The notes under the pieces are model-generated. The model was not told the DNA's origin and did not search any database. It saw only the letters and a list, made by a program, of their open reading frames with translations. Both the position numbers and the translations under genes were made by a program. A DNA stretch of 64,000 nucleotides from Acidobacteriota bacterium (lineage in GTDB: Bacteria > Acidobacteriota > Holophagae > Holophagales > Holophagaceae), in NCBI GenBank assembly GCA_016213735.1, contig JACQZU010000014.1:372001-436000 (forward strand), read 5' to 3'. This document shows, piece by piece, positions 53,815 through 61,591 of this stretch; within the stretch, counting starts at the first letter, position 1; every line of letters starts with the position of its first letter.

Positions 53815-54255
53815 TCAGGCGCCTTCGGGCTCCCTACCCTTCTTCACCTTCACCAGCACCAGGGTGGAGCCTTCGGCGTCCTTCTCCATCGCCACGGTGT
53901 CCATGACCTGCTTCATGAAGAAGACTCCCCGTCCGCAGGGCTTGAGGAGGTTCTCGGGCAGGTTGGGGTTGGGGATGGAGTCCAGGTCCACTCCCGGGCC
54001 CGTGTCGTGGATGCGAATCTCCAGGCGGTCCGCGGCGGGGTTGAAGGCCACCCAGACGGGCTTCTTCTTGTCCAGCTTGTTGCCGTGGCGCATGGCGTTG
54101 GCGATGCCTTCCTGGATCGCCAGCCAGACCCGCTCGCCGTCCTCCTGGGAGAAGCTCATGTGCTTGAGCAGCTCCGAGCCCACCACCTGGATCAGGTCGA
54201 TGAACCTGAGGTCGGTGTTGCAGGTGAGCGTGACGGGCAGCAGCTGCGCGGACAT
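53815..54255 (-). CDS. RsbW-like ATP-binding anti-sigma/serine kinase
   Basis: 146 residues, single HATPase_c_2 domain. N box AIQEGIANAMRHGN, G1 box HDTGPGVD, G2 box CGRGVFFMKQVMDT, and the final beta-strands STLVLVKVKK. Related in layout to the HATPase part of the receiver-ATPase gene at 18.2 kb. Proteins of this group phosphorylate STAS antagonists or act as RsbW-type switches; neither a STAS protein nor a sigma gene adjoins. Start at ATG 54255; a TTG at 54330 would add 25 residues. Confidence 0.85.
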   Translation of the reverse strand: MSAQLLPVTLTCNTDLRFIDLIQVVGSELLKHMSFSQEDGERVWLAIQEGIANAMRHGNKLDKKKPVWVAFNPAADRLEIRIHDTGPGVDLDSIPNPNLPENLLKPCGRGVFFMKQVMDTVAMEKDAEGSTLVLVKVKKGREPEGA

Positions 54256-54412
54256 GGTCAAATAGGCCCCCGGAAAGAACCGGATGGACCAAATTACTTG
54301 GAAAACGCCCCGGGGGGCCAGGGAATTCAAAGTGGACGCCCTGGTTCCCGCGGGCCGCCGGGGGTATGCTGAATTACCCGACTAGGTTGGTCAGGATTCC
54401 GGGAGCCCTCCG

Positions 54413-56131
54413 CTGAAAGTCGTCGTCGCCAAGACCGCCGGGTTCTGCTGGGGCGTGAAGCGCGCCATGGACGCGGTGCTGGAGGCCTCCGCCGCCCGGG
54501 ACGGCTCCCGGGTCCAGACCCTGGGTCCCCTCATCCACAATCCCCAGGCCCTGGAACTCATCGGGCAGCGGGGCGTCTCGGTGACCCAGGCCCCGTCCGA
54601 AGTCCAGGCGGGCACCGTGGTGATCCGGGCCCACGGCATCCCCATCCAGGACCTGCGCGGGCTCAAGCAGCGGCAGGAGGCGGGGGAACTGAAGGTGGTG
54701 AACGCCACCTGCCCCGAGGTGGCCAAGGTCCACAGCCGCATCAAGAAGTTCAGTCCCAAGGGCTACTTCACCATCATCCTGGGCAGCCACGGGCACGCCG
54801 AGAGCGAGGCCCACCGCAGCTTTGCGGAAAGCGGTTCCCGGATCGTGGCGAACATGGCGGAGGCGGAGGCCCTCACGGACGCGGAGCTGGCTCGGGCCCT
54901 GGTGGTGGCCCAGACCACCTTCACCGTCACCGAGTTCGGGGGGATCACGGACTACATCCGCTCCCGGGCCGGTGACCTCATCGTGGAGAACACCATCTGC
55001 GACGACACCTGGATGCGCCAGGACGAGGCCCATCGCATCGCCGCCTCGGTGGATCAGGTGATCATCGTGGGGGGGAAGAACAGCGCCAACACCCGCCACC
55101 TGGCGGAGCTGGCGGCCCACCACGGCAAGCCCTACCAGTACGTTGAGACCGCCGCGGAGCTGGAGCTGGGCGGCTTCCGGGGCCACGAGACCGTGGGGGT
55201 GCTGGCGGGGGCCTCCACGCCTACCTGGCTGGTGGACGAAGTGGTGGATGTGCTGGAGCAGCTGGGGGACGCCCCCGGGCGCTTCACGAGCTTCCTCAAG
55301 GGGGGCCTGGCGGCCCCGGGCCTCCTGGCCCTGGGTTCGGCGTTCATGACGCTGGGCGTCCACGCCTGGATGGGACTGCCCCGCACCCTGGCCTTCCCCC
55401 TCCTGACCGGGGGCTACGTGCTGGCCATGTACCTCCTCACGCCGTACGTGGATCCCCTGGGCCTGGGTTCCAAGGGCCCCGCCCGGGCCCGCTTCCTCCA
55501 GCGGAACCGGCGCGCCCTGCTGGGCGTGGGCATCCTCTCCCTGGCGGGCTCCCTGGGCATCGCCGCCAGCCTGGGCCTTCTGCCCCTGGCCGTGATGGCC
55601 GGCGCCTCCGTGCTGGGGGTGGCCTACACGGTGCGGCTGCCCTTCGCCGGAGGCTGGAGCCTCCGCGCCATCCCGGGGTCGAAGGACATCATGGTCAGCG
55701 CGGCCCTGGCGGTGGTGGCGGTGGGCATGCCCTTGCTGCATGGGGGCGGCTTGGCGCCCGGCCGGGCGGCGGCGGCCTTCTTCTTTGTGGCCGTGCTGGG
55801 CTTCGCCCGCACCGTGGTCTCCAACATCCGGGACATGCAGCACGACCAGATCCTGGGGCGTGAGACCCTGCCGATCCTGGTGGGACGGCGCAACGCCAAG
55901 CTCCTCACGGCGGTGCTCCTGACCCTGGCCTGTCTGCTGGCAGGGGGCCTCAGCCTGGCCCAGCTGGACCTCCCCCGGGCCCTCCTGGCCCTCCCTGTCC
56001 TGGGGCTGGCCGCGGCCTATCCGCTGGTCCACCTCTGGTATTTCCACGAGCGCTTCACGGTGGGCAAGGGGAGCTTCCGCCCCAGCCTGGACCTGGGTCT
56101 CTTCCTCCTCGCCCTGCTCGCGCTGCCCTGA
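54413..56131 (+). CDS. ispH: IspH fused to UbiA-like prenyltransferase domain
   Basis: 572 residues. Residues 1-~285 are 4-hydroxy-3-methylbut-2-enyl diphosphate reductase (last step of the MEP pathway): [4Fe-4S] ligands C12 (GFCWGVKRA), C100 (NATCPEV) and C196 (ENTICDDTW), with HAE in the acid/base position. Residues ~290-572 are a hydrophobic domain of about eight TM helices that looks like UbiA: RDMQHDQILGRETLP (472-486) matches the second Asp-rich motif. The first UbiA Asp-rich motif is not present in its usual form. The start is CTG at 54413 with GGGAG 7 nt before it; the frame upstream contains no ATG, GTG or TTG before a TAG at 54383, and the first downstream GTG (54455) would delete C12. 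Confidence 0.87.
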   Translation: MKVVVAKTAGFCWGVKRAMDAVLEASAARDGSRVQTLGPLIHNPQALELIGQRGVSVTQAPSEVQAGTVVIRAHGIPIQDLRGLKQRQEAGELKVVNATCPEVAKVHSRIKKFSPKGYFTIILGSHGHAESEAHRSFAESGSRIVANMAEAEALTDAELARALVVAQTTFTVTEFGGITDYIRSRAGDLIVENTICDDTWMRQDEAHRIAASVDQVIIVGGKNSANTRHLAELAAHHGKPYQYVETAAELELGGFRGHETVGVLAGASTPTWLVDEVVDVLEQLGDAPGRFTSFLKGGLAAPGLLALGSAFMTLGVHAWMGLPRTLAFPLLTGGYVLAMYLLTPYVDPLGLGSKGPARARFLQRNRRALLGVGILSLAGSLGIAASLGLLPLAVMAGASVLGVAYTVRLPFAGGWSLRAIPGSKDIMVSAALAVVAVGMPLLHGGGLAPGRAAAAFFFVAVLGFARTVVSNIRDMQHDQILGRETLPILVGRRNAKLLTAVLLTLACLLAGGLSLAQLDLPRALLALPVLGLAAAYPLVHLWYFHERFTVGKGSFRPSLDLGLFLLALLALP

Positions 56132-56284: not shown

Positions 56285-57391
56285 ATGGCCGAACCGAGGA
56301 GCACCATCTGGGAAACCATGCAGGAGCGGGGCCACAGCCGCCGCGACTTCCTGCAGTTCTGCGCCTACGCGGCCACGCTGGCGGGCATCGCCCCCGCGGC
56401 CCACGGCAAGGTGGCGGAGGCCTTCGAGAAGAAGGCGCGGCCGCCGGTGATCTGGCTCCACTTCCAGGAGTGCACCTGCTGCAGCGAGTCCTTCATCCGC
56501 GCCGAGCATCCCGTGGTGGCGGACGTGCTGATGGACGCCATCTCCCTGGACTACACCGAGACCCTGCAGGCGGCCTCGGGCCACGCGGCGGAGAAGTGCA
56601 AGGCCGACACCATGAAGGCCTACGCCGGGAAGTACATCCTCCTGGTGGAGGGCTCGGTGCCCACGGAGGCCGACGGCGTGTACTGCTGCATCGGCGGGCG
56701 GACGGCCCTGGACATCCTGAAGGAGGCCGCCGCCGGCGCCGCCGCGGTCATCGCCTGGGGCAACTGTGCCAGCTACGGCTGCGTGCAGAACGCCAAGCCC
56801 AACCCCACGGGAGCCACGCCCATCAGCAAGCTCATCGGCAAGCCCGTCATCAACGTGCCGGGCTGCCCCCCCATCGCCGACGTCATGGTCGGCGTGGTGA
56901 CGCACATCCTGGTCTTCGGCCGCCCGCCGGAGCTGGACGCCCAGGGGCGGCCCAAGGAATTCTACGGCCGCCGGGTCCACGACACCTGCTACCGCCGCCC
57001 CACCTACGACGCAGGCATGTTCGTGGAGACCTGGGACGACGACGCCGCCCGGAAGGGCTACTGCCTCTACCACATGGGCTGCCGCGGCCCGGTGACCTAC
57101 AACGCCTGCGCCGTCACCAAGTGGAACGAGCGCACCAGCTACCCCATCCAGTCCGGCCACGGATGCATCGGGTGCAGCGAGAACCAGTTCTGGGACAACG
57201 GCCCCTTCTACCAGCACCTGCCCTCCTTCCCGGGCTTCGGCATCGAGTCCACCGCGGACAAGATCGGCCTGGCGGCGGGGGCGGCCGCGGCGGTGGGGGT
57301 CGCGGCCCACGCCATCTCCACCAACATCCGGAAGCGGGGACTCATCCACGAGCACGTGGCCGAGTCCGTGACCGAGAACAAGTCCGAGTGA
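56285..57391 (+). CDS. hyaA: [NiFe] hydrogenase small subunit, O2-tolerant type
   Basis: 368 residues. Tat signal SRRDFLQFC (18-26) and a C-terminal TM helix (~335-352) predict a periplasmic, membrane-bound enzyme. Proximal cluster cysteines: C63, C65, C66, C161, C166, C194. The two extra ones (C65 in CTCC and C166 in CASYGC) are the supernumerary ligands of the [4Fe-3S] cluster known from O2-tolerant hydrogenases (E. coli Hyd-1 C19 and C120), with matching spacing (98 residues). Distal and medial cluster ligands follow (HDTCYRRP, GYCLYHMGCRGP, GCIGCSE). Start ATG 56285, with a strong ribosome-binding site. First gene of a hydrogenase operon. Confidence 0.96.
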   Translation: MAEPRSTIWETMQERGHSRRDFLQFCAYAATLAGIAPAAHGKVAEAFEKKARPPVIWLHFQECTCCSESFIRAEHPVVADVLMDAISLDYTETLQAASGHAAEKCKADTMKAYAGKYILLVEGSVPTEADGVYCCIGGRTALDILKEAAAGAAAVIAWGNCASYGCVQNAKPNPTGATPISKLIGKPVINVPGCPPIADVMVGVVTHILVFGRPPELDAQGRPKEFYGRRVHDTCYRRPTYDAGMFVETWDDDAARKGYCLYHMGCRGPVTYNACAVTKWNERTSYPIQSGHGCIGCSENQFWDNGPFYQHLPSFPGFGIESTADKIGLAAGAAAAVGVAAHAISTNIRKRGLIHEHVAESVTENKSE

Positions 57392-57409
57392 CGAGGAAAG
57401 GACCGACCG

Positions 57410-59128
57410 ATGAGCAACCGAATCGTCATTGATCCCGTCACGCGCATCGAGGGCCACCTCCGCATCGAGGCGGTGATCGAGAACGGCGTCGTGAAGGACG
57501 CCTTCAGCGCCGGCACCATGGTGCGGGGCATCGAGAAGATCCTGAAGGGCCGGGACCCCCGGGACGCGTGGGCCTTCACCGAGCGGGTCTGCGGCGTGTG
57601 CACCACGGTGCACGCCCTGGCCTCCGTCCGGGCCGTCGAGGATGCCCTGGGCATCCAGGTTCCGAAGAACGCCGAGCTGGTTCGCAACCTCATGTTCGCG
57701 GCCCAGTACGTGCAGGACCACGTGGTGCACTTCTACCACCTCCACGCCCTGGACTGGGTGGACGTGGTGAGCATGCTGAAGGCCAACCCCGTGGAGGCGG
57801 CCAAGATCGCGCAGTCCATCTCGCCCTGGCGGAACAACACCGCCGGCCACTTCGCCGCGGTGCAGAACCGCGTGAAGAAATTCGTGGAGAGCGGCCAGCT
57901 GGGCATCTTCGCCAACGGCTACTGGGGCCACAAGGCCTACAAGCTGCCCCCCGAGGTCAACCTCCTGGCCGTCTCCCACTACCTGGACGCCCTGGAGTGG
58001 CAGAAGGACCTGGTGAAGATCCACGCCATCTTCGGCGGCAAGAACCCCCACCCCAACTACCTGGTGGGCGGGGTGCCCTGCTCCTTCAACCTGGAGGAGG
58101 TGAACGCCATCAACACCGAGCGCCTGAACCACGTCGGCAGCCTCATCAAGCAGGCCATCGAGTTCGTGGAGCAGGTCTACGTTCCGGACCTTCTGGCCGT
58201 GGCGGGCTTCTACAAGGACTGGGCGGCCATCGGCGGCGGCCTGGAGAACTACCTCGCCTACGGGGACCTGCCCACCAACGGCTACGGGGACCCCTCCAAG
58301 TTCATGCTGCCCCGTGGGGCCATCCTGGGCCGGAACCTCAACGAGATCCACGAGGTGAACGGAAAGAATGTCGAGGAGATCAAGGAGTACATCTCCCACT
58401 CCTGGTATTCCTACGCGGGGGGCGACGCCAACGGACTGCACCCCTGGAAGGGCGAGACCGAATTCAACTTCACCGGCCCCAAGCCGCCCTACACCCAGCT
58501 CAACGTCGAAGGCAAATACAGCTGGCTGAAGACGCCGCGCTGGAAGGACCACCCCATGGAGGTGGGCCCGCTCAGCCGCATGCTCGTGGCCTACGCCAAG
58601 GGCGTGACCGACGTGAAGGAAGTCGTGGGCGCCGTCCTCAAGAAGCTGGACGTGCCCATCACCGTGCTCTTCTCCACCCTGGGGCGCACCGCGGCCCGGG
58701 GGGTCGAGACCCAGGTGGTCGCGCACTGGATGAAGGGGATCTACGACGACCTGATCACCAACATCAAGAACAACGAACTGCGCACCCACACCCGGTACCG
58801 CTGGGACCCCGCCACCTGGCCCGCGGAGGCCCAGGGGGTGGGCATGACCGAGGCGCCCCGCGGCGCCCTGGCCCACTGGATCAAGATCAAGGACCAGAAG
58901 ATCGACAACTACCAGCTGGTGGTCCCGAGCACCTGGAACGCATCCCCCCGGGACGGCAAGGGCCAGCGTTCGGCCTACGAGGCCTCCCTCATCGGCACCC
59001 CGGTGGCCAACCCCGAGCAGCCGGTGGAGATCCTTCGGACCATCCACTCCTTCGACCCCTGCATCGCCTGCGCGGTCCACGTCTACGACCCGGAGGGCAA
59101 GCAGGTCCACCAGGTTTCCTTCTACTGA
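57410..59128 (+). CDS. hyaB: [NiFe] hydrogenase large subunit
   Basis: 572 residues. The four Ni-Fe site cysteines are in L1, RVCGVCTTVHALASVRAVE (C61, C64), and L2, DPCIACAVH (C551, C554). The 15-residue tail VYDPEGKQVHQVSFY after H557 is the C-terminal extension removed during maturation by the HyaD/HybD protease. Typical MSNRIVIDPVTRIEGHLRIE start. Follows hyaA by 18 nt. No signal peptide, as expected: it is co-translocated with the Tat-bearing small subunit. Confidence 0.97.
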   Translation: MSNRIVIDPVTRIEGHLRIEAVIENGVVKDAFSAGTMVRGIEKILKGRDPRDAWAFTERVCGVCTTVHALASVRAVEDALGIQVPKNAELVRNLMFAAQYVQDHVVHFYHLHALDWVDVVSMLKANPVEAAKIAQSISPWRNNTAGHFAAVQNRVKKFVESGQLGIFANGYWGHKAYKLPPEVNLLAVSHYLDALEWQKDLVKIHAIFGGKNPHPNYLVGGVPCSFNLEEVNAINTERLNHVGSLIKQAIEFVEQVYVPDLLAVAGFYKDWAAIGGGLENYLAYGDLPTNGYGDPSKFMLPRGAILGRNLNEIHEVNGKNVEEIKEYISHSWYSYAGGDANGLHPWKGETEFNFTGPKPPYTQLNVEGKYSWLKTPRWKDHPMEVGPLSRMLVAYAKGVTDVKEVVGAVLKKLDVPITVLFSTLGRTAARGVETQVVAHWMKGIYDDLITNIKNNELRTHTRYRWDPATWPAEAQGVGMTEAPRGALAHWIKIKDQKIDNYQLVVPSTWNASPRDGKGQRSAYEASLIGTPVANPEQPVEILRTIHSFDPCIACAVHVYDPEGKQVHQVSFY

Positions 59129-59141
59129 CCCGGAGGCCGCC

Positions 59142-59831
59142 ATGGACGCCATCAAGGCACCGAGCTACCGGCGGATCTACGTCTGGGAGCTGCCTGTCCG
59201 GGCCTTCCACTGGATCAACGGGATCTGCATCCTCCTCCTCGGCGTCACGGGCTACCTCATCGGCCGGCCCTTCGCCGTGATTTCGGAGCAGGAGGCCTCC
59301 TTCCAGTATTGGTTCGGCACCGTGCGCTTCCTCCACTTCGCCGCCGGCTACCTCTTCCTGATCAACATGCTGGCCCGCATCTACTGGGGCTTCGTCGGCA
59401 ACCGCTACGCCAACTGGAAGCAGTTCATCCCCACCCGGAGGAAGTGGTTCACCGAGGTGGCGGACGTGCTGCGGGTGGACGTCCTCCAGACCCGGGTCCA
59501 GGGGAAGATCCACATCGGCCACAACCGACTCGCGGGCTTCATCTACTTCCTCAGCTTCTGGGTCTACGGCTTCCAGGCCCTCACCGGCTTCGCCCTGTAC
59601 GCGGCCATGAGCCCTTCCTGGATCGGGAGGGCCGCCGCCGCGGTCATCCCCGGGACCTGGAACGACATGGGCGTCCGCCAGTGGCACCACGCGGGGCTCT
59701 GGTTCTTCGTGCTGTTCACGATCATCCACGTGTACCTGGTCTTCTACCACGACTACGTCGAGGGCCGCGGGACCACCTCCTCCATGGTGGGCGGCTGGAA
59801 ATTCGAGCGGGAAGACTACTTCAAGTCCTGA
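59142..59831 (+). CDS. hyaC: Hydrogenase b-type cytochrome subunit
   Basis: 229 residues with four TM helices (~22-42, ~62-85, ~126-155, ~185-205). Conserved histidine ligands for two hemes sit in RAFHWING, RFLHFAAGY and HHAGLWFFVLFTIIHVYLVF. Transfers electrons from the hydrogenase dimer to quinone and anchors it in the inner membrane. Follows hyaB by 13 nt. Completes the H2:quinone uptake module. Confidence 0.95.
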   Translation: MDAIKAPSYRRIYVWELPVRAFHWINGICILLLGVTGYLIGRPFAVISEQEASFQYWFGTVRFLHFAAGYLFLINMLARIYWGFVGNRYANWKQFIPTRRKWFTEVADVLRVDVLQTRVQGKIHIGHNRLAGFIYFLSFWVYGFQALTGFALYAAMSPSWIGRAAAAVIPGTWNDMGVRQWHHAGLWFFVLFTIIHVYLVFYHDYVEGRGTTSSMVGGWKFEREDYFKS

Positions 59832-59898
59832 ACCCCGCCGGAGCGGGAAGTCCGGGTCCAACCGGGACCCTGGGCTTCCTGCGCCGGGCCGTGATGGA

Positions 59899-60369
59899 AT
59901 GGAAACCATGCAGGAACCGCGCGGCACCCTCGTCCTTGGCCTGGGCAACACCCTGATGGGGGACGAGGGGGTGGGGGTCCGGGTCGTGGAACTCCTCCTG
60001 GAAGGCCCCCCGCCGCCGCCCGGCGTCACCTGCCTGGACGGAGGAACGGGCAGCCTGGTTCTCCTGGAGCCCATGCAGGGGGCCCGGCGCCTTCTTCTGG
60101 TGGACGCGTCCGCGGACGGCCATCCCCCCGGAACGGTGCGCCGGATCATCCCCCGCTTCGCTTCGGACTTCCCCCCGAGCCTGAGCGCCCACGACATCGG
60201 TCTGCGGGACCTGCTGGACAGCTTCTACCTCCTGGGGGAGAGCCCGGAGGTGGTGCTCTACGCCATTTCCATCCCCTGGCCCCAGGAACTGGGCACGGGC
60301 ATCGCCCCGGAGGTGGAGGCGGGGGCCGCGCAGGCGGCGGCCATGATCCGGGAGGAGTGGGCCTCCTGA
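59899..60369 (+). CDS. hyaD: Hydrogenase maturation endopeptidase
   Basis: 156 residues (or 153 from the in-frame ATG 9 nt downstream). Cleaves the large-subunit C-terminal extension once Ni is inserted. LVLGLGNTLMGDEGVGVRVVELL with the Ni-binding Glu and Asp of the family, VDASADG, and SAHDIGLRDLL carrying the conserved His. 67 nt after hyaC. No hypABCDEF or other accessory gene follows, so the remaining maturation machinery is elsewhere. Confidence 0.93.
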   Translation: METMQEPRGTLVLGLGNTLMGDEGVGVRVVELLLEGPPPPPGVTCLDGGTGSLVLLEPMQGARRLLLVDASADGHPPGTVRRIIPRFASDFPPSLSAHDIGLRDLLDSFYLLGESPEVVLYAISIPWPQELGTGIAPEVEAGAAQAAAMIREEWAS

Positions 60370-60419
60370 GGCGTCCTCCCGGGCGGGGGTTACAATGGGG
60401 CCACTTCCAAGGAGCCTCC

Positions 60420-60719
60420 ATGCGCAACCGCACCCTCATCGTGGCCCTGGCCGCCCTCCTGGCCGGCGGCATCCTCGGCTTTGCCGGCGCCGCCAAGGCC
60501 TACGAGAAGACCGGCACCGTCAAGAGCGTCGAAGGCGACAGCTTCGAACTGGACTTCGGCAAGGAGGTCTGGCGCTTCTACACCGACGGCGCCACCGCCG
60601 GGAAGGACGCCCTCAAGGCGGGCCAGAAGGTGACCGTGAGCTACAAGCAGGTGGCCACCAAGATCGAGGCCAAGGGCGAGGCCAAGAAGGCCGACGCGAA
60701 GCCCGCGAAGAAGAAGTGA
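60420..60719 (+). CDS. Small secreted protein, OB-like
   Basis: 99 residues. Signal peptide ~1-28 (MRNRTLIVALAALLAGGILGFA...AKA). A beta-rich domain (~29-80: KTGTVKSVEGDSFELDFGK, then KAGQKVTVSYKQVATKIEAKG) may be OB-like; a Lys/Ala tail ends the protein. AAGGAG precedes the ATG and TACAAT (60391-60396) is a possible -10. The next gene overlaps it by 4 nt (GTGA). Unknown family. Confidence 0.65.
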   Translation: MRNRTLIVALAALLAGGILGFAGAAKAYEKTGTVKSVEGDSFELDFGKEVWRFYTDGATAGKDALKAGQKVTVSYKQVATKIEAKGEAKKADAKPAKKK

Positions 60720-61591
60720 CCGGCAAGGCCGGCGCCCGGCGGTCCGAGCCCCAGGGGCCCGACCGCTGGGTGCTGATCACGGGCTGCGGCAGCGGCATCG
60801 GCCGGGCCCTGGTCCAGCCCTGCAGGGACGCGGGCTGGGGGGTGGTGGCCACCGCGCGGCAGTTGGCGGACCTGGAAACCCTGCCCAACGGCAACGACCT
60901 CTACCGGAAGGCCCTGGACCTCACCCGGCCCGCCACCCTGGCGGACACCGTGGCGGGGTGCTCGGACCTGCGCCTGGTGGCGGTGATCAACAACGCGGGA
61001 TACGGCCAGGTAGGCCCCCTGGAACTGCTCCGCCCGGAGGAACTGCGGGCCCAGTTCGAGACCAACGTGGTGGGCCTCCAGTCGGTCACCAATGCTTTCC
61101 TGCCCCTGATCCGGAAGAACGCCCGGAAGGGCGAAGGCCGCATCCTCCAGGTGGCCTCCATGCTGGGGCGCCTGTCCATCCCCCTGGCGGGTCCCTACAA
61201 CGCCAGCAAGCACGCCGTGGTGGCCCTGGCCGAGACCCTGCGACTGGAGGTGGGGCGGGAGGTGCACATCGTCCTGGTGGAGCCTGGAGCCGTCAAGACC
61301 CGGTTCCGGGAAAACCTCTCACGTCACTGGGGAGACCTTCCCGAGCGCGTGAAGGGAACGCGCTACGAACGCACGCTGAAGGGCTACATGGAGCGCCGGG
61401 AGGAACTGGGAGAGGCGCACGGCCTGGACCCCGAGGCCTGCGCCGCCCGGATCGTGCAGGCCCTGAACGCCCGCCGCCCGCCCCGCCGCGTGGTCATCGG
61501 CCGGGACGCCTTCTGGGCGGGAAAACTCAAGGCCCTCCTGCCCGCCTGGGCCTGGGAGTGGATGCTGCGCAGGACCTACCGGATCCGGTGA
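60716..61591 (+). CDS. SDR family oxidoreductase
   Basis: 291 residues from a GTG overlapping the previous stop. Classical SDR: TGCGSGIGRAL (GxxxGxG), NNAGYG, catalytic Ser/Tyr/Lys in QVASMLGRLSIPLAGPYNASKHA, and PGAVKTRF after the active site. A short Lys/Arg-rich N-terminal extension precedes the fold. The C-terminal part (ALNARRPPRRVVIGRDAF) is typical of larger SDRs acting on lipids or steroids. Substrate unknown. Confidence 0.88.
   Translation: MTGKAGARRSEPQGPDRWVLITGCGSGIGRALVQPCRDAGWGVVATARQLADLETLPNGNDLYRKALDLTRPATLADTVAGCSDLRLVAVINNAGYGQVGPLELLRPEELRAQFETNVVGLQSVTNAFLPLIRKNARKGEGRILQVASMLGRLSIPLAGPYNASKHAVVALAETLRLEVGREVHIVLVEPGAVKTRFRENLSRHWGDLPERVKGTRYERTLKGYMERREELGEAHGLDPEACAARIVQALNARRPPRRVVIGRDAFWAGKLKALLPAWAWEWMLRRTYRIR

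Follow-up and report, generated by a model that had tools for sequence, protein, structure and literature searches.

IspH is the last enzyme in the making of isoprenoid building blocks. Proteins in which it is joined to a UbiA domain were named "Rosetta stone" proteins by Rao et al. in 2015, with the function of the UbiA part given there as unknown; 47 such IspH-UbiA proteins were reported, primarily from Desulfobacterales and all said to be in sulfate reducers, and the UbiA half was classed as PT_UbiA_5, with two DXXXD sites stated to be present (PMC4746011). Membrane localisation combined with a local supply of prenyl precursors was proposed for them, and attempts to express the full-length protein failed (PMC4746011). 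IspH-RPS1 fusions are described in the same paper (PMC4746011). In a survey of cultured Acidobacteria, (almost) all genes of the MEP pathway, including ispH, were found in the species examined, among them Geothrix fermentans and Holophaga foetida (PMC5462960).

The window analysed here is a stretch of 64,000 nucleotides from a member of the Holophagaceae (assembly GCA_016213735.1, contig JACQZU010000014.1), in which a first-pass annotation had read one gene as a fusion of IspH with a UbiA-like membrane domain and had suspected that this combination might be new. The fusion itself was borne out by the 572-codon frame, by Pfam matches to both LYTB and UbiA, by an AlphaFold model and by Foldseek, whereas the suspected novelty was not, such proteins having been named and discussed in 2015 (PMC4746011). 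The protein belongs to the known IspH-UbiA kind, and its architecture is not new.

Layout of the fusion gene and its two halves

The features of the locus, in positions of the window, are as follows.

53815-54330, upstream and divergent: ATPase of the HATPase_c_2 (anti-sigma) type, from Pfam
54365-54370: TATGCT, a -10-like box just ahead of the palindrome
54380..54392, no strand assigned: 13-base palindrome GACTAGGTTGGTC (GAC-N7-GTC), 33 bases before the fusion start, a possible operator
54413..56131, + strand: IspH-UbiA fusion gene, 572 codons plus stop, with an implied CTG start
54413..55264, + strand: IspH (LytB) half, residues 1-284, from Pfam LYTB, TIGR00216 and Foldseek
54446-54448, 54710-54712 and 54998-55000, + strand: codons of the cluster cysteines C12, C100 and C196
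55280..56128, + strand: membrane half of the UbiA superfamily, residues 290-572, about nine helices, from Pfam, AlphaFold and Foldseek
55439..55465, + strand: site of UbiA motif 1, residues 343-351, TPYVDPLGL, aligned with the fusions and the genome's three other UbiA-family proteins
55832..55873, + strand: UbiA motif 2, residues 474-487, DMQHDQILGRETLP
56285-60366, downstream of the fusion: small and large subunits of a [NiFe] hydrogenase, cytochrome b and maturation protease, from Pfam
60357-61591: a small gene and an SDR gene

The fusion is read in a single uninterrupted frame that ends with a stop codon at 56129-56131, and the CTG at 54413 encodes its conserved first residue. Because an in-frame TAG lies upstream at 54383, because a start at the next ATG, GTG or TTG downstream (GTG 54455) would lose Cys12, a cluster ligand, and because the start of the fusion in relatives aligns at the same residue (mostly ATG, TTG once, and in one case GTG one codon earlier), the record implies a CTG start at 54413, unless it is wrong by one base there. 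Standard ORF calling of this presumably essential, CTG-started gene would begin at the GTG and drop the first cluster cysteine.

The N-terminal half matches Pfam LYTB over residues 3-281 of the fusion protein (E 3e-76), passes the cut-off of the NCBIfam IspH model TIGR00216 and resembles E. coli IspH in Foldseek with a TM of 0.85. The three cluster cysteines, the conserved histidines and the catalytic glutamate are all present, as the first-pass annotation had noted for the cysteines, and C12, C100, C196, H42, H74, H128 and E130 are invariant in an alignment of 51 fusions. Domain matches, alignment and modelled fold together identify this half as a complete [4Fe-4S]-type IspH. Since the fusion is the sole IspH in 34 of the 35 fusion-bearing genomes tested (ESSENTIALITY), and IspG and Dxr were found in the window's genome with no detectable HMG-CoA synthase, the IspH half would be expected to be active as an HMBPP reductase and is presumably essential. 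The one exception among the 35 carries two IspH, both in frames of more than 500 codons. A second, diverged copy of the fusion type, 513 residues long, 40% identical and with a truncated UbiA half, was seen at G008:C1:718429-719955 (L035), in a genome that also carries a normal fusion.

The C-terminal half matches Pfam UbiA (PF01040) at residues 367-541 with an E of 1.4e-13, above the gathering score, in line with the original reading of this half as UbiA; it resembles several NCBIfam prenyltransferase models and reaches the cut-off of no named subfamily. In the AlphaFold model, built from an input of 51 fusions (pLDDT 87, pTM 0.83), an IspH domain is followed by about nine membrane helices, and Foldseek places the UbiA half closest to AfUbiA of Archaeoglobus fulgidus (4tq3/4tq4, TM up to 0.64) and ApUbiA of Aeropyrum pernix (4od5), the closest solved structures including AfUbiA entries with DMAPP or GPP bound. 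At the level of profile match and predicted structure, these results establish a UbiA fold for the C-terminal half.

The two aspartate motifs of this half have fared differently. In the window copy, only the middle aspartate (D347) of the NxxxDxxxD of motif 1 remains, and among 59 distinct Holophagaceae sequences the asparagine is S, T or A in 56, N in 2 and Q in 1, the middle aspartate is D in 52, N in 4 and E in 3, and the last aspartate is gone in all 59. The remaining group of 30 rows, which includes the window copy as one row, has N first in 26, D in the middle in 13 and D last in 9. Motif 1 deviates in every fusion group sampled, Desulfobacterota included, and the non-canonical first motif remarked on at the outset is a property of the whole fusion family; regular-expression matches for motif 1 in two loci proved to be motif 2 in another register. 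The DxxxD of motif 2 is intact, as also noticed before, with D474 and D478 present (DMQHD, then GRETLP); all Holophagaceae retain the motif, a single D-to-E change aside, and across phyla the fusion alignments show almost no variation in the IPxSK loop, D478 and G..ETLP. The dN/dS of the UbiA half ranges from 0.06 to 0.31 in 23 close pairs, one of which is counted twice under two locus ids, and is usually above that of the IspH half. The membrane half is thus under purifying selection, which speaks against mere decay but is no proof of catalysis.

Distribution, descent and genomic setting

A search that covered 60 related genomes found the full-length fusion in 30 of the 37 genomes of the window's family, the window's own included, at 51-68% identity; the remaining seven, mostly less complete assemblies, gave no match or only a partial or broken copy. 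Six of the fusion-bearing Holophagaceae assemblies are single contigs. G058 and another family of the same class have more distant fusions (34-40% identity). Named carriers are Geothrix fermentans, G. campi, G. rubra and other Holophagaceae and, beyond the Acidobacteriota, Desulfosarcina widdelii, other Desulfobacterota and MAGs labelled Candidatus Zixiibacteriota. Neither Geothrix nor Holophaga is known to be a sulfate reducer.

The UbiA type of the fusion was found in 24 of 196 near-complete Acidobacteriota genomes, every time in an open frame of fusion size, and in 93 of 247 genomes of the phylum of Desulfosarcina, nearly all in frames of fusion size; the exceptions seen in the latter phylum were contig ends, short frames and one ordinary UbiA with a canonical motif 1. 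In these genomes the type appears to occur essentially only in fused form. The one clear unfused match, which is also the closest unfused relative (G274; 293 aa, 73 bits), resembles an ordinary UbiA, with NRLTDVEED as a canonical motif 1, and was set aside as a free-standing relative, and a further candidate (G492) was discarded with its frame stopping at a contig end.

Because the IspH halves of all sampled fusions fall into one group with support of 99/98, apart from most unfused IspH in the tree, and the UbiA halves can be aligned over their full length with those of the Desulfobacterota fusions, common descent with the Desulfobacterales fusions is indicated. The simplest reading would be that the fusion arose once, long ago, and then spread vertically and perhaps also laterally. 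Two unfused IspH (L134 in G259 and L137 in G265) nest inside the fusion clade of the IspH-half tree with moderate support; their genomes give no match to the fusion's UbiA type at E 1e-15, and these cases likely represent secondary loss of the UbiA half.

In the window, the hydrogenase genes seem to sit between neighbours that are adjacent elsewhere, because the small gene and SDR gene that follow them resemble the pair directly after the fusion in Geothrix campi (L046). Among the flanks compared, in which the window's neighbours were identified by Pfam and those of other groups were recognised by eye from sequence, no neighbour gene conserved across groups was found, and at the loci inspected none pointed to an acceptor or acceptor pathway for the UbiA half. 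Operon context was accordingly rejected as a pointer to a partner, the flanks differing between groups (ParA/ParB-like, FtsY-like, SDR).

Of 61 distinct upstream regions from Holophagaceae, 55 carry a GAC-N7-GTC palindrome about 30 bases before the start, against 1.25 expected from shuffling, and the relatedness of these sequences inflates the figure of 55; outside the Holophagaceae, 0 of 30 regions upstream of the fusion have it. Its form, GACYRN3YRGTC, recalls the core of IscR/Rrf2-type sites, and the palindrome is possibly the operator of some regulator. A palindrome regulon was considered and dropped: the genome holds 56 sites, the same number as for a reversed-pattern control, and the 20 sites inspected did not show the promoter layout seen at the fusion.

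Roles considered for the membrane half

The reading that we favour, with a probability of roughly 70%, is that IspH is tethered to the membrane alongside a domain of UbiA fold which binds or uses a prenyl diphosphate. The membrane half would hold IspH at the cytoplasmic face of the membrane, and the UbiA pocket, with motif 2 intact and one carboxylate of motif 1 left, would bind a prenyl diphosphate, either as the donor for some acceptor or in a product-binding or regulatory site beside the DMAPP and IPP output of IspH. The same tethering and supply hypothesis was put forward by Rao et al. (PMC4746011), and the idea of the first-pass annotation that the fusion couples the two activities or recruits IspH to the membrane agrees with it. 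Counted in its favour are the domains and fold, the sole IspH, the presence of IspG and Dxr without HMG-CoA synthase, the fused state in several phyla, the near absence of unfused copies of this UbiA type, the 99/98 clade, the dN/dS values, motif 2 with the IPxSK loop, the matches to DMAPP- and GPP-bound AfUbiA and the separate quinone-type UbiA. Against it, motif 1 in Holophagaceae lacks the asparagine and the last aspartate, so that binding of a prenyl diphosphate is not assured; no neighbour indicates an acceptor, the published full-length expression failed (PMC4746011), and the two nested unfused IspH suggest that loss of the membrane half can occur.

Under the supply hypothesis of Rao et al. 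(PMC4746011), the UbiA half would be a true, active prenyltransferase, receiving DMAPP or a downstream prenyl diphosphate from IspH and prenylating some membrane acceptor. We regard this as a tentative possibility: the UbiA fold, the intact motif 2 and purifying selection are consistent with it, as are the one motif-1 carboxylate kept in Holophagaceae and the asparagine plus aspartate kept in some other groups, but motif 1 deviates throughout the groups sampled, in contrast to the NRLTDVEED of the closest unfused relative, and an acceptor-pathway neighbour was not found at the loci inspected. Three other UbiA-family proteins are encoded in the window's genome: a UbiA_other/MqnP-like protein, a CtaB-like protein and a third with no NCBIfam match at the threshold used; the first, encoded separately, exceeds the TIGR01475 cut-off, for which reason a role of the fusion as the cell's quinone prenyltransferase was judged unlikely and the fusion should be dispensable for quinone prenylation. 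It is doubtful whether the UbiA half has been repurposed, without classical two-metal prenyl transfer, to bind DMAPP or IPP from the attached IspH as a feedback sensor or for another reaction, the Holophagaceae form being far diverged and lying behind a dedicated, palindrome-controlled promoter. We consider it unlikely that the half is a mere membrane anchor, an old UbiA that neither catalyses a reaction nor binds a ligand any longer and persists for its role in localisation, for instance close to an electron donor of IspH in the membrane; the eroded motif 1 of Holophagaceae and the somewhat faster evolution of the UbiA half than of the IspH half in most pairs would fit, but the near-invariance of motif 2, the IPxSK loop and G..ETLP across phyla goes beyond the needs of an inert anchor. 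An error of sequencing or assembly that merged two genes is exceedingly improbable, the odd CTG start codon being the single argument for it. The same length and an unbroken frame, with no frameshift at the junction, recur in many genomes of other groups and in no fewer than 30 from the Holophagaceae, of which six are single-contig assemblies, and this conservation refutes an artefact.

Comparison with described fusions and UbiA proteins

The IspH-RPS1 fusions of Firmicutes likewise carry a C-terminal partner domain on IspH, but there the partner is ribosomal protein S1 and not a membrane protein, and the NCBIfam IspH-RPS1 model matches the window protein across its IspH part only. With the UbiA superfamily (AfUbiA 4tq3/4tq4, ApUbiA 4od5, DGGGP synthase 6m31, UBIAD1) the fusion has in common the fold and the DxxxD...G..LP region of motif 2, whereas its motif 1 departs from NxxxDxxxD.

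With the fusions of Rao et al. the window protein shares an N-terminal IspH and a C-terminal nine-helix UbiA, and it is homologous by alignment and IspH tree with the Desulfobacterota fusions. In contrast to that set, the window's kind is found also in Holophagaceae and other Acidobacteriota, beyond sulfate reducers, the Holophagaceae motif 1 is altered further, and the upstream palindrome is absent in other groups. The two DXXXD motifs, a descriptive and not a family-defining statement in Rao et al., are not both present, as the window copy has motif 2 only; the statement does not hold for the sequences sampled here, a set other than that of Rao et al., and this casts doubt on the published view of the UbiA half as a normal prenyltransferase on the strength of two aspartate motifs (PMC4746011). 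The family extends to cultivable relatives of Geothrix whose sole IspH is the fusion, which should be essential there; they would be tractable hosts for finding out what purpose the joining of an isoprenoid-precursor enzyme to a UbiA domain serves. Relative to the open-licence literature, the present analysis adds to the known fusions a distribution past the sulfate reducers, a single well-supported IspH clade, a UbiA type that is almost never found unfused, purifying selection on the membrane half, a rebuilt motif 1 and the upstream palindrome of the Holophagaceae.
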